Assembly (NCBI GenBank): GCA_001914815.1
Contig: MNDG01000060.1
Span: 1 to 34,820, forward strand
Origin: Acidobacteriales bacterium 13_2_20CM_55_8
GTDB lineage: Bacteria > Acidobacteriota > Terriglobia > Terriglobales > Acidobacteriaceae
Length of the DNA: 34,820 bases
Reading direction: 5' to 3'
The position numbers were made by a program, and so were the translations under genes. Within the stretch, counting starts at the first letter, position 1; each line of letters starts with the position of its first letter. Under the pieces are notes generated by a model. It ran no database searches, was not told where the DNA came from, and saw only the letters and a list, made by a program, of their open reading frames with translations. This document shows, one piece after another, positions 9,772 through 24,447 of the stretch.

Positions 9772-9950
9772 ATTTTTTAGCGGGCCACAATACGTCGCTG
9801 CTGTGATTGTGGGTGCTGAAGGTGTGAAACGTTGCAATACCGTAGCACAGGAATCGAGCTGTGACAATCCTCAACTAGTAGGGAGGGAAGGATTTAGCAA
9901 AGTAGCTGTTTCTGGCGAGTTCTCCAATGCAGCTTCAACGCGCGAAGACG

Positions 9951-10009
9951 GCTGAATGCTGACGAATGCTGACGGCTGAATGTTGACGGCTGAATGTTGA
10001 GGGCTATTG
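9951..10009. repeat. Degenerate heptamer array, family A (GCTGAAT / GCTGACG / GTTGACG)
   Basis: GCTGAAT GCTGACG AAT GCTGACG GCTGAAT GTTGACG GCTGAAT GTTGAGG GCTATTG; the last unit overlaps the holB stop. Confidence 0.85.
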
Positions 10010-11038: not shown

Positions 11039-11049
11039 AAGTTAGAAGC

Positions 11050-11070
11050 ATTCAGCAATCAGCATTCAAC
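11050..11070. repeat. Heptamer array, family A, inverted relative to the 9951 array
   Basis: ATTCAGC AATCAGC ATTCAAC, 11 nt from the holB start codon. Confidence 0.75.
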
Positions 11071-11160
11071 CCAACATATTCCATGAGCTCTGAGCTCTGC
11101 ATAAACCAGCATACTCGCAAGCACATTGACGAGCAGTGTCCGAGACAACTGAACCCGAGC

Positions 11161-11188
11161 ACTCAGCAATCAGCACTCAGCATTGAGC
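11161..11188. repeat. Heptamer array, family A
   Basis: ACTCAGC AATCAGC ACTCAGC ATTGAGC, 10 nt from the tmk stop. Confidence 0.75.
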
Positions 11189-11902: not shown

Positions 11903-11987
11903 CAGCACTTGGCACTTAGCAATTAGCATTTGGCCCCTTGAGGTCTGGGGAAGTTGCTAAGTGCCAAATGCTAAGTGCCAAGTGCTG
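11903..11987. repeat. Heptamer array, family B (CACTTGG/CACTTAG/CATTTGG), folded as an inverted repeat
   Basis: CAGCACTTGGCACTTAGCA (11903-11921) is exactly complementary to TGCTAAGTGCCAAGTGCTG (11969-11987). Further heptamers lie inside, including GCATTTGGC / GCCAAATGC. Confidence 0.9.
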
Positions 11988-18833: not shown

Positions 18834-19019
18834 TGAGCTTAAGTTCCTTTCCTAATTCCTTCCGGAGGGATAAGGCAAACTGTTATTGTTGCAGAATTTA
18901 CGGGGATTGGCAAGTTGAGGCGCCTAGTGGGCGTCCGAGCCCGCTGCCGAAATTCCTGAGCAAAGCGAAGGATCCTAAGGCTGCGAGAATCGCGGGGAGG
19001 GGACGAGAGTCTAGTTGCC

Positions 19020-19060
19020 AGTGGTCAGAACGAAACGGAGGCAGTTCGCCACTGACCACT
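19020..19060. repeat. Short inverted repeat of family C type (AGTGGTCAG ... CTGACCACT)
   Basis: 9-bp exact arms 19020-19028 / 19052-19060; the right arm ends 2 nt before the peroxiredoxin stop. Confidence 0.65.
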
Positions 19061-19062
19061 TT

Positions 19063-19752
19063 CTAAGGTCGCTTAACCGCGGTGAGAATCTCGCCTGGCT
19101 CTGGCCGCTCCGTGTAGTCGGGATTAGACGAGGCGTAGAGCACAGTACTGTCCCGTTCGATAATGTAGGTTGCAGGAATAGGAAGTTCCCAACTCTCATC
19201 TCCATTCGCCAATGGCAAATTGACAAATGCGCGCCGGTAAACGGCCTGCTGAAAATCCGGCACGCGATACACCAGTCCAAACTGGCGAGCCACGTCGTTC
19301 CCCACATCGCTCAATAGTGGGAACTGCAGCTGGTGTTGGTCGGCCATGAAGAACGACTGCTGCACGGTCTGAGGAGAGATTGCAATCAACGACGCTCCAA
19401 CTTCTTCGATCTCCGATACCAGGCGGTTCATCGCTTCCAGTTGCCCAACACAGAAGGGACACCAGCGTCCGCGAAAGAAACAAATCACCAGCCGGCCCTT
19501 GGTTAATAGCTCAATTGAAGAAAGTAATTTGCCGTTGTGGTCCGTTAGCTCAAAGGCAGGAGCTTTCGCGCCGGGAGCGAGAGCGCCTTCAGCAATGCGT
19601 TGCTGCTGCAGTTCGGCGATGACACGCGCATGAATAGCCTGGATTTCCGCCGGAACATACTTGGCCACCAATTCCTTCCGCTCCGCAAACTGCTCACGCA
19701 AAGAGCGAGCGTCCGCAGCCAAACCGCTTTCGTCGAGTGAGCGCCATTTCAT
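19063..19752 (-). CDS. Peroxiredoxin-like AhpC/TSA family protein
   Basis: APAFELTDHNGKLLSS, VICFFRGRWCPFCVGQLEAM; 229 aa. Confidence 0.88.
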   Translation of the reverse strand: MKWRSLDESGLAADARSLREQFAERKELVAKYVPAEIQAIHARVIAELQQQRIAEGALAPGAKAPAFELTDHNGKLLSSIELLTKGRLVICFFRGRWCPFCVGQLEAMNRLVSEIEEVGASLIAISPQTVQQSFFMADQHQLQFPLLSDVGNDVARQFGLVYRVPDFQQAVYRRAFVNLPLANGDESWELPIPATYIIERDSTVLYASSNPDYTERPEPGEILTAVKRP

Positions 19753-19754
19753 AA

Positions 19755-19911
19755 GAGCAGTGGCCAGTGACTAGTGGTTAGTGGCTAGTAAGAGCGAACG
19801 GCGGAGACTAGCCACTAACCACTAGTCACTAACCACTAGTCACTAACCACTAGTCACTAACCACTAGTCACTAACCACTAGTCACTAACCACTAGTCACT
19901 AGCCACTGGTG
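19755..19911. repeat. Large heptamer array, family C, with inverted left arm
   Basis: Left arm 19755-19789: GAGCAGT GGCCAGT GACTAGT GGTTAGT GGCTAGT. 17-nt spacer. Right arm 19807-19911 is 15 contiguous heptamers: ACTAGCC, six copies of ACTAACC ACTAGTC, ACTAGCC, ACTGGTG. Confidence 0.95.
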
Positions 19912-19913
19912 TT

Positions 19914-21272
19914 CTACATTCCGGGTAATTTCATCCCCGCAAGTCTTCGGGCGAAGCTAGGTTTGCCCATCTGCTTGAACATCTTTCGCATTTGGGCATA
20001 TTGGCGCAGAAGATTATTGACTTCTTGCACGCTAGTACCGGAACCGCGAGCGATCCGCTTGCGCCGGCTGCCATTGATGACTTCGTGATGCAGGCGTTCG
20101 TGAACTGTCATCGAGTTGATAATTGCCTCGACGTGACCGAGTTGTTTCTCGTCAACCTTATCGGCAGCCTTCTGCAATCCTGCGAACGGGCCAATGCTGG
20201 GCAGCATTCCCATCAGACTCTGGAGCGATCCCATTTTCTTGACCTGGCGCAACTGATCGCGAAAATCTTCCAACGAGAAGCCATCACCAGTCATGGCCTT
20301 GGCGGCCATTTCCTCGGCCTTCTTCTTATCTATCTGTTGTTCTGCTTTTTCGATCAGCGACAGAATGTCGCCCATCCCCAGGATTCGCGACACAATTCGA
20401 TCGGGATGAAAAGGTTCCAGCGCGTCGTATTTTTCGCCTACACCGATGAACTTGATCGGTTGACCTGTAACCTGTCGGATCGAGAGCGCAGCGCCACCGC
20501 GCGCATCGCCGTCCATTTTCGTGAGCACAACGCCGGTCAGTGAAAGTTTCTTGTGAAATTCGTCAGCCGAGCGCACTGCATCCTGGCCAGTCATGGCGTC
20601 AGCCACAAACAGAATTTCCTGAGGATTCAGAAGGCGCTTGAGCGACTGCATCTCCTCCATCAGTTGATCGTCGATGTGCAGACGACCAGCGGTGTCTACG
20701 ATGAGCACATCAGAACCAGTGTTAATGGCTTCGCGACGCGCTTCTTTGGCCAGACGCTCCACGGTTGCCGTATTGGCCTCGCCAACCTGACCTTCGTAGA
20801 TGTTGGCCTTGATCGCTTGAGCAACCACTCTGAGTTGCTCGCGGGCAGCGGGGCGGTAAACGTCCACCGAAACCAGCAACGGGCGGTGGCCCCCATTTTT
20901 CAACCAGTTTGCCAGCTTGCCCGAAGTGGTGGTTTTGCCGGACCCTTGCAGTCCCGCCATGAGCACCACGGTTGGCGGCTGGGAGGCGAACTTCAGTTTC
21001 GCCGTGTCGCGACCCAGAGTTTCGATCAATTCGTCGCGCAGAATCTTGATCACCTGATCGCCCGGCGATAATGCGGTTGCGACTTCCTGGCCGATCGCCT
21101 TCTCCTGGATGTGATCGATCAACTGCTTAACCACTTTGAAGTTAACGTCGGCTTCGAGCAACGCCAACCGGATTTCCCGCAGCGCCTCCTCCATGTTTTC
21201 CGGGCTGAGGACGGCCTGTCCGCGCAGGGTTTTGAACGCGCGCTGGAGTTTCTCTGAAAGATTCTCAAACAT
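19914..21272 (-). CDS. ffh: Signal recognition particle protein Ffh
   Basis: MFENLSEKLQRAFKTLRG, MAGLQGSGKTTTSGKLA, VDVYRPAAREQL, VDTAGRLHIDDQLM, TKMDGDARGGAALS, M-domain. Confidence 0.97.
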   Translation of the reverse strand: MFENLSEKLQRAFKTLRGQAVLSPENMEEALREIRLALLEADVNFKVVKQLIDHIQEKAIGQEVATALSPGDQVIKILRDELIETLGRDTAKLKFASQPPTVVLMAGLQGSGKTTTSGKLANWLKNGGHRPLLVSVDVYRPAAREQLRVVAQAIKANIYEGQVGEANTATVERLAKEARREAINTGSDVLIVDTAGRLHIDDQLMEEMQSLKRLLNPQEILFVADAMTGQDAVRSADEFHKKLSLTGVVLTKMDGDARGGAALSIRQVTGQPIKFIGVGEKYDALEPFHPDRIVSRILGMGDILSLIEKAEQQIDKKKAEEMAAKAMTGDGFSLEDFRDQLRQVKKMGSLQSLMGMLPSIGPFAGLQKAADKVDEKQLGHVEAIINSMTVHERLHHEVINGSRRKRIARGSGTSVQEVNNLLRQYAQMRKMFKQMGKPSFARRLAGMKLPGM

Positions 21273-21325: not shown

Positions 21326-22343
21326 TTATCCACCGAAAACTTCTTTCGCAGCGATCACCGTGTTGCAGTGAATCGTGACCGTATCTTCCACTCGACGCGC
21401 ATAGCCTCCAGCGAACGTCACCATCACTGGAATCTCACGCGCCCGAGCTACGCGGAACATCAGTTCATCGCGCCGCTTAAGTCCCGCGATGGTGAGCGCC
21501 AGTCCGCCAAGCTGATCTTCGCGATAAGGATCGGCGCCCGCGATATAACAAATTAATTCAGGCTCAAACTGACGGAGCCCGGAGCTGAGCGCGTTGTCCA
21601 GCCAGGCGAGATAATCATCGTCGCCCGTGCCATCCGGCAGATTCACATCAATCGACGATGTCGGCTTCCACGCCGGGTAATTATTTTCCTGATGAAGCGA
21701 AATCGTGAACACGTCGCCGGCAGTGGCACTGCGTACATCTGCACGGCTCGGCACAAAGGAAGCTCTGGATGGAAGTGGATCGCTGGCTTCACGCGTCCCA
21801 CTAAAAATTGCGGCCGTTCCGTTTCCCTGGTGAACGTCACAGTCCACCGTCATGGCCCGGACGATTTTTTTGTCACTTTGCAAGATCAGGGAAGGCGTGA
21901 TGGAAACCACCCCCAATATTGCAGGCTACCTTGTCTGTCAGCGCTCTTTGCCCAGCCAGGATCGACCCTCCTGCCGCCAAAACAAACGCTCGCACCAATC
22001 CCAGAGAATAGGGAACCTCCATCTGGAGTTCCTCGCGCGGAGAAAGAGTTCCGGTTTTCAGCTTGTGCACGTATTCGGGTGTGTGCACCAGCAAAACATC
22101 CTCGTCAGAGGCCGGGGATGGCTCAAGGAAATCCGACGGCTCTGCGACGCCGGTTTCCAGCAGCCGCTGATGAATGTAACGGTATTTCTGAGCCGGGAAG
22201 ACGTGGGCTCCGATCGGAAGATAGTAGCCGTCGCTGTACACCAATTTGAAAGGTAGCATGGGCTGGAACCGCCCCATAATACTCGCCAGTCGGTCGTCCC
22301 ATCTTGGACTTAATCCCTGCATCCTGTGTGAGTTGTGGCGCAT
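21326..22343 (-). pseudogene. Histone-deacetylase-family (acetoin utilization-like) protein, split by a frameshift near 21880
   Basis: ORF 21873..22343 encodes the N-terminus to ACNIGGGFHHAFPD; ORF 21326..21916 resumes at SDKKIVRAMTVDCDVHQGNGTAAIF. Confidence 0.85.
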
Positions 22344-22454: not shown

Positions 22455-24386
22455 ATGGCAAAGATTATAGGAATTGACTTGGGCACGACCAACTCTGTGG
22501 TGGCAGTCATGGAGGGGGGAGAACCCAAGGTCATTCCCAACGAAGAAGGCGGTCGGACGACCCCTTCCGTGGTCGGTTTCACCAAGACGGGCGAGCGGCT
22601 TGTAGGGCAAGTTGCCAAACGCCAAGCCATCACCAATCCAGAAAACACGATTTTCTCGATTAAGCGTTTCATGGGGCGGCGCTACGACGAAGTCAGCGAA
22701 GAAATGAAGATGGTGCCCTTCAAGGTCGTGAAGTCTGGCGACAACGTGGCCATCGTCGCCCAGGGCAAGGAGTACACCCCGCCCCAGGTCTCCGCAATGA
22801 TTCTTCAGAAGCTGAAGAAAGCTGCGGAAGACTACCTTGGCGAAAAGGTTAACGAAGCCGTTATTACGGTTCCGGCATATTTCAACGACGCGCAGCGTCA
22901 GGCTACCAAGGACGCCGGCAAGATCGCAGGGCTGGACGTCAAGCGCATCATTAATGAGCCCACTGCAGCCGCACTGGCTTACGGTCTGGACAAAAAGAAA
23001 GACGAAACCATTGCCGTCTACGACTTCGGCGGCGGCACCTTCGATATCTCCATTCTCGAAGTGGGCGAAGGCGTCATCGAAGTCAAAGCCACCAACGGCG
23101 ACACTCACCTGGGCGGTGACAACCTCGATCAGCGCATCGTGGATTGGCTAATCGACGAATTCAAAAAGGACGAAGGTCTCGACCTTCGCGGCAAGGGGAA
23201 CGAAATGGCGTTGCAGCGTCTGCGTGACGCAGCGGAGCGCGCCAAGATCGAACTCTCCACCACCATGGAGACTGAGATCAATCTACCCTTCATCACCGCC
23301 GATGCCAACGGTCCCAAGCACTTGGTCAAGAAGATGACTCGGGCCAAGCTGGAGTCGATGGTGGAGGACCTAATCCAGCGCTCCGTTGGGCCGTGCAAGC
23401 AGTGCATGAAAGACGCCGGAGTGGACGCGAGCAAGATTAATGAAGTCGTCCTGGTTGGCGGACAGACCCGCATGCCTCGCATTCAGTCCCTGGTGAAGGA
23501 GTTGTTTGGCAAGGATCCGCACCGCGGCGTCAATCCCGACGAAGTAGTCGCGATCGGAGCAGCCATTCAGGGTGGCGTGCTCGGAGGCGAGGTGAAAGAT
23601 CTTCTTCTCCTCGACGTTACTCCGCTCACGCTCTCAATCGAAACCCTGGGAGGCGTAGCCACACCGATGATCCCGCGCAACACGACCATCCCCACCCGCA
23701 AGACGGAGACTTTCTCCACCGCGGCGGATAGTCAGACTTCGGTGGAAGTCCATGTGTTGCAAGGCGAGCGTCCGCTGGCGCGAGACAATCGTACGCTGGG
23801 CAAATTCCACTTGACCGGTATTCCACCGGCTCCTCGCGGAGTGCCGCAGATCGAAGTTACGTTTGATATCGATGCTAACGGCATCCTGAACGTGACCGCG
23901 AAAGACAATGCTACCGGCAAGGACCAGAAGATTACGATTACGTCTTCTTCCGGCTTGAGCAAAGAAGAGGTCGAGCGCATGGCCAAGGAAGCCGACGCTC
24001 ACTCCGCCGAGGATAAGGCCAAACGCGAAGAGATCGAATCGCGCAATCAGCTCGACACCTTGGTGTACAGCGTCGAGAAGATGCTTCGTGAACAGGGCGA
24101 CAAGATCTCGGGTTCGGAACGCGGCGATGTCGAGAACGCAATCGCCGATGCCAAGAAAGCGCTCGAATCAAATGACAAGCGCAGCATGGACCAGGCCCGC
24201 GAGCGTTTGACCCAAGCTTCGCACAAACTGGCCGAGCAGATGTACAAAGCTGCTCAACCCCAAGGCGCCCCGGGAGCGGGACCTAGCGCAGGTGCAGGCC
24301 CCGCTGCTGGAAGTAACGACGAAGCACAAAAGAAAGACGAAGGAGTAATCGACGCTGAGTACGTAGATGTGGAAGACAAGAAATAA
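22455..24386 (+). CDS. dnaK: Molecular chaperone DnaK
   Basis: [40 protein letters not shown]...; 643 aa full length; SD GGGAGG at 22440. Confidence 0.98.
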
Positions 24387-24413: not shown

Positions 24414-24447
24414 GTTGGAAAGGGGCGCTGCGGCGCCCCTTTCCAAC
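24414..24447. terminator. Perfect 15-bp hairpin between dnaK and dnaJ
   Basis: GTTGGAAAGGGGCGC-TGCG-GCGCCCCTTTCCAAC; no strong T-tract follows (GTTAATGTCT), so it could be a 3'-end stabiliser or processing signal instead of a terminator. Confidence 0.6.

Follow-up and report, generated by a model that had tools for sequence, protein, structure and literature searches.

Dispersed arrays of heptanucleotide repeats that can form long hairpins in an acidobacterial genome and in other Terriglobales

Introduction

In a metagenome-assembled genome (MAG) of Acidobacteriales bacterium 13_2_20CM_55_8, almost the entire gap between the ffh gene and a peroxiredoxin gene (prx) is occupied by heptanucleotides, which follow one another without a phase slip and recur in inverse orientation. 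This raises the question of whether the structure is a singular tract or a member of a larger family, and how it could have been built and kept. An initial annotation had compared it to the STRRs of cyanobacteria and had suggested that an acidobacterial equivalent might exist. The STRRs of Calothrix and Nostoc are tandem direct repeats of 7 nt, and several different words are present per genome. Here, the locus was characterized within a stretch of 34,820 nt (contig MNDG01000060.1, called the window), and related arrays were sought in the same MAG, in a sister species, and in further Terriglobales.

Results

The ffh-prx gap contains the following elements, and a further hairpin lies just behind the prx gene:

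19914..21272, minus strand: ffh (SRP54)
19807..19911, no strand assigned: main array of 15 heptamers, ACTAGCC (ACTAACC ACTAGTC)x6 ACTAGCC ACTGGTG
19790..19806, no strand assigned: loop of 17 nt, AAGAGCGAACGGCGGAG
19755..19789, no strand assigned: five inverse heptamers, the 3′ hairpin arm of the ffh-prx transcript
19063..19752, minus strand: prx, AhpC/TSA-type peroxiredoxin gene
19013..19060, no strand assigned: another hairpin of heptamers from the word family of the main array, decayed, just past the prx stop (2-mismatch pattern matches at 19013-19029 and 19044-19060)

The coordinates and the phase of the 15 heptamers, the five inverse heptamers and the 17-nt spacer proved to be exactly as described in the initial annotation, and arms and loop indeed fill 157 of the 161 nt of the gap (19753-19913) between the end of ffh at 19914 and the prx ATG at 19752. 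Only in a proposed check had the neighbors been named ffh-rpsP instead of ffh-prx. On the transcribed (minus) strand the main array is the 5′ arm and begins 2 nt past the ffh stop codon, while the 3′ arm ends 2 nt short of the prx start codon. Read as reverse complements, the inverse heptamers are ACTGCTC, ACTGGCC, ACTAGTC, ACTAACC and ACTAGCC; the outermost heptamer on either side (ACTGGTG, ACTGCTC) is degenerate. In the window, the heptamer-related pattern had 20 matches versus 1.3 expected. Of the 15 units of the main array, 12 make up a 14-nt double unit repeated six times without a mismatch (TRF: 14-mer, 7.2 copies, 97% match), and the identity of these copies suggests that the array expanded recently, by 14 nt at a time.

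The exact reverse complementarity claimed for the arms was verified over 21 nt, and the pairing can be extended to 31 nt with 2 mismatches. The gene-strand RNA of the gap folds at -91.1 kcal/mol (z = -9.8), and 0 of 200 shuffled sequences were as stable, so that the predicted long hairpin can form. At gathering scores no curated Rfam family matched the window, and a simple terminator scan flagged no site at the array. The prx ATG is preceded by CACTGCTCTTATG, which contains no Shine-Dalgarno sequence, as had been noted before; its absence cannot be attributed to the array, because prx orthologues with other gap sequences mostly lack a clear one as well (judged by eye, uncounted). Within the word family of the window, arms swapped between sites paired nearly as well (15.9/17) as the true arms (17/17), and therefore this locus alone is no proof that one arm was copied from the other.

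Two features near this locus are of other kinds. At 21326-22343 a gene of the histone deacetylase family is distributed over two reading frames, with each of the two ORFs matching another part of PF00850, which could be due to a frameshift, an error in sequencing or a genuine split. A perfect 15-bp hairpin of non-heptamer type (GTTGGAAAGGGGCGC tgcg GCGCCCCTTTCCAAC) is found at 24414-24447, past a gene that ends at 24386.

The window's own MAG (G000; 2.77 Mb, 168 contigs, 67% complete) is fragmented. Scans covered sampled stretches, and genes were called with our own dicodon caller. Some G000 contigs had been picked for holding ACT arrays; for this reason, the densities given below come solely from contigs numbered serially. 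On 27 contigs of the MAG, the pattern (ACTNNYC)x3+ACT had 74 matches, overlaps included, versus 0 for the reversed control; the array is thus not a unique tract without relatives, a possibility that the initial annotation had raised, and its family is dispersed genome-wide. A scan for any period revealed 68 intergenic arrays with period 7 in 649 kb of the MAG and only 0-4 arrays for each of the other periods from 4 to 13; signals at 14 and 21 are harmonics of 7. Likewise, 518 kb from 80 Terriglobales loci contained 48 arrays with period 7 and at most 4 for other periods. The arrays are thus intergenic and have a period of almost exclusively 7. Serially numbered contigs contained 24 sites in 330 kb of G000 and 37 sites in 679 kb of the sister species G001, and the value of 0.73 sites per 10 kb suggests roughly 200 sites per genome.

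The arrays belong to at least 10 word families, including AGTGRYY, AGCANTC, AGCAYTT, GATTNNC, CAGTTNT and GTCGTTG, and in the first sample most of the long inverted repeats between genes consisted of heptamer words. The words ACTARYC, AGCAYTT and GATTNNC are devoid of G-tracts and are thus not of the quadruplex-capable kind. Two further arrays of other word families are present in the window itself:

11047..11188, no strand assigned: arrays of the AGCANTC type, which fill the intergenic space of the DNA polymerase III delta′ and thymidylate kinase genes
11903..11987, no strand assigned: AGCAYTT/GCTAART hairpin at the opposite end of the thymidylate kinase gene, at a site conserved in G001

The G001 orthologue of the first site is a perfect 26-bp AGCANTC hairpin. 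In addition, an imperfect 14-nt repeat (GACGGCTGAATGCT) at 9947-10005, in the gap beside the stop of the delta′ gene, is probably another decayed heptamer array.

The arrays are nearer to stops than to starts, and in codirectional gaps they begin at a median distance of 7-9 nt past the upstream stop. In the congeneric genomes G000 and G001 together, arrays were present in 9 of 201 divergent, 74 of 617 codirectional and 24 of 120 convergent gaps (p = 0.002 and 2e-5). The orientation bias was weak in serially chosen contigs, and it was not significant in the 80 Terriglobales family loci alone. The hairpins are flanked by A-rich sequence before and by T-rich sequence after the stem, a modest enrichment with 191 T versus 96 A in the 9 nt that follow (p = 2e-8). 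This fits bidirectional terminators, and the flanks may also simply be further pairs of the stem.

An exact complement of at least 10 nt was present nearby at 30% of the sites, in contrast to 2% for swapped neighborhoods; within 150 nt, most arrays lacked an exact inverted partner. At sites with two facing arrays, the true pairs matched at 15.9/17 positions versus 14.7/17 for swaps within the same word family (n = 49, p = 3e-7). When all sites were included irrespective of a partner, own and swapped pairs did not differ (p = 0.45). As significance was reached only after the restriction, the result applies to sites with two facing arrays, and for this subset it supports joint pairing of the arms. 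In the AGTG family and in the genome G056, arms often start with CAGTG and finish with CACTG. The loops between facing arms are short, and they are mostly unrelated between sites. A conserved loop as the core of the element was considered and rejected, because a search with the motif GCGAACNGC revealed one place in the genome and the other loops differ.

G001 is a separately binned MAG with about 88% DNA identity to G000. Twenty-four sites could be placed in it on at least one flank, and most of them are common to both genomes and have different numbers of units. An array follows ffh at the same position (locus L032), with about 4 heptamers versus 15 in the window, so that the copy-number variation for which the initial annotation had proposed a comparison is present, here between sister species and not between strains of one species. 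At one site (L069:9206) both arms are of the CGATTGT type in G000, while both are of the AATTTCC type at the orthologous G001 site, i.e., the word has changed jointly in the two arms. The single clear gain or loss was found on contig C93 (13050-13122), where a whole hairpin is present in G000 and the G001 site is empty. This element and that of the window are 90% identical over 61 nt, including the loop, and share the arms and a few flanking bases; they are the only clear loop copies within the AGTG family. Because the loop is included in the copy, it can be concluded that complete elements can be duplicated. No target-site duplication was visible when the filled and the empty site were compared, at this one site with diverged flanks.

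In G001 a region of about 33 kb is inverted relative to G000, with one breakpoint at the ffh array (window 18975-19883; G001 contig C111, 20402-53846). The array was rejected as the cause of the inversion, because the other breakpoint region in G000 (contig C64) contains no array. The prx gene, which is conserved behind ffh in several other genera, is missing from the ffh locus of G001, and no close copy was found elsewhere in this incomplete genome.

The gap behind ffh was then read in 75 named Terriglobales loci. In 24 of them a period-7 array follows the ffh stop, and the words differ between genera (CAGTTCT, GTCGTTG, CAGTTGC, AGCATTC, GGCTCTA, GGACCTT and others). An inverted arm before prx is often present, and arrays with control periods are rare in these gaps. 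Thus, the layout lasts and the sequence changes, as the ffh gaps of relatives hold similar arrays in other words. At the level of the class, the ACTNNYC type has a patchy distribution: it was detected in 25 of 61 genomes and occurred at a very large number of places in four genomes from other families, while AGCAYTY was present in 8 of 151 genomes. The reversed-pattern control was not clean in G056, G058 and G059, which are three of these four genomes, because their words fit the reversed pattern as well. No arrays were found in 200 kb sampled from a complete genome of the same family (G018), and as some genomes of the family had none in the sample, an essential role is unlikely.

On contig C71 of G056, a heptamer hairpin is present twice together with its flanks, the two copies being inverted relative to each other (L195 near 11,000 and L197 near 39,100). 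The duplicated block is bounded by 26-nt direct repeats (CCGCTCCCTCACGGTCGCGGCTCGGA), possibly a second, REP-like repeat family.

Discussion

An acidobacterial counterpart of dispersed heptanucleotide repeats exists, and its members can form long hairpins. The arrays share with the cyanobacterial STRRs the in-phase tandem unit of 7 nt and the several words per genome; they occupy many intergenic loci, and the copy number varies between sister species. The proposed analogy therefore holds for the dispersed heptamers, but it does not extend to a common sequence, since the 7-nt step and the inverted layout are all that the many word families have in common. Three STRR words are given for Calothrix (cited in PMC4692102), and few of the Nostoc GGGGAYT repeats are paired into inverted repeats (PMC4692102), in contrast to the common inverted pairing found here.

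Two other systems are closer analogues than plain direct-repeat STRRs. The GGGAATC repeats of Xanthomonas occur at about 180 sites per genome, mainly in codirectional gaps and near stops, and are scarce in divergent gaps; they often consist of two inverted arrays, and sites are common to different species, between which the length is variable (PMC4692102, Rehm et al. 2015). The acidobacterial arrays resemble them in the number of sites, the position near stops and the inverted pairs. However, Xanthomonas uses one G-rich, quadruplex-forming word, whereas here many families without G-tracts are present and words are replaced between genera. In the P6b stem of the Nostoc tRNA-Leu intron, 7-nt repeats are present on both sides, the length shifts by 7 or 14 nt, and two words serve one structure with repeated shifts between them (PMC4476775). 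The interchangeability of 7-nt words for one stem is the same, but P6b is one locus in a group I intron, in contrast to about 200 intergenic loci here. The TAACTGA repeats of Beggiatoaceae are also dispersed intergenic heptamers; they are direct repeats of a single word just upstream of start codons and nearly never inverted (PMC4679880).

Like REP and REPIN sequences, the arrays are palindromic, intergenic, near gene 3′ ends and present in hundreds of copies. Unlike them, they have no conserved palindrome of 20-40 bp and no tagged end, and RAYT genes are not flanked by them. They are thus dispersed heptanucleotide repeats and not REP/REPIN elements. In the openly licensed literature no description of such arrays in Acidobacteria was found; a survey with four acidobacterial genera classified three-fold 7-nt repeats as "normally represented" in the phylum (PMC4060949), but it could have overlooked imperfect arrays of the present kind. 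What is new is the combination of many words per genome with word replacement at a conserved site and in a conserved layout.

With about even confidence we propose that the hairpins are built by slippage and are kept at gene 3′ ends as terminator or mRNA-end structures, possibly acting in both directions. Slipped-strand replication would let arrays grow or shrink in steps of 7 or 14 nt. A strand switch of replication across the inverted repeat would allow an existing arm to template its partner, and thus both arms would change jointly and a site could take on a new word. Now and then, a whole element would be copied into another gap. The hairpin would be kept at gene 3′ ends because the RNA is a stable stem able to act there, as a transcription terminator and/or as a block to 3′ exonucleases. 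At the window locus it might uncouple or damp the expression of prx relative to ffh.

A purely neutral origin is a serious rival and quite possible, even if we lean against it. Replication machinery prone to 7-nt slippage and to template switching at hairpins would leave arrays in weakly selected DNA, and their position would mirror purifying selection elsewhere. The period of 7 whatever the word, the turnover of words between genera and the patchy presence are all as such a process would predict, and among longer simple repeats, heptanucleotides were found to be the most frequent class in most repeat-rich bacteria, and a 7-nt polymerase contact was proposed (Mrazek et al. 2007, as summarized in PMC4679880). 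On the other hand, the arrays start a few nucleotides past stops instead of at arbitrary positions between the genes, complementarity is maintained in paired arms, and arrays persist behind ffh in many genera. In Xanthomonas, transcripts start or stop more often at quadruplex-capable repeats than at control repeats (PMC4692102); as heptamers are also the commonest longer repeats in many bacteria, the literature is compatible with functional and neutral readings alike.

It is improbable that the arrays are the long inverted ends of a small REPIN- or MITE-like mobile element family served by a transposase in trans. The shared arms, loop and flanking bases of the window and C93 elements, the empty G001 site, and the recurrent CAGTG and CACTG arm ends would fit such a family. 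But the remaining loops are mostly unrelated, no target-site duplication is visible at C93 with its diverged flanks, most of the 24 placed sites are common to both sister species, and the sole copy pair of G056 sits within a larger repeated block. RAYT was rejected as the mover: five PF01797 loci in G000 and G001 had no array within about 1 kb (one reaches the contig end), and G018 has a RAYT gene and no arrays in the sample.

Still less probable is a regulatory role in which the heptamer is the binding site of a Csp-, S1- or CsrA-like protein that acts on downstream translation, as proposed for TAACTGA of Beggiatoaceae. The window array ends 2 nt before a prx start that is devoid of a Shine-Dalgarno sequence, which would fit such a role, but the arrays hug stops more than starts, and a sequence-specific binder is not readily allowed because the words differ between neighboring genes and between orthologous gaps. 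An assembly artefact of one metagenome bin is highly implausible, even though the MAG is fragmented and the exact 14-mer count is that of the assembly, because an array occupies the same place behind ffh in the separately binned sister MAG and arrays are present in dozens of other genomes.

Heptamers are reported to be the favored longer simple repeats of bacteria. With sites by the hundred, a multitude of words and numerous sister species, this clade allows the birth of words, their expansion and copying from arm to arm to be followed in orthologous gaps. If the hairpins do act at transcript ends, function would reside in a repeating geometry and not in the sequence. It is tempting to speculate, although we regard this stronger version as rather doubtful, that gene-end hairpins of Terriglobia inherit only their architecture, i.e., the 7-nt step, the inverted arms and the position behind the stop, while a copying process that inherently proceeds in 7-nt steps rewrites all the letters in both arms in concert. 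If this were true, sequence searches would miss the homology of these elements, although they would be the same functional part.
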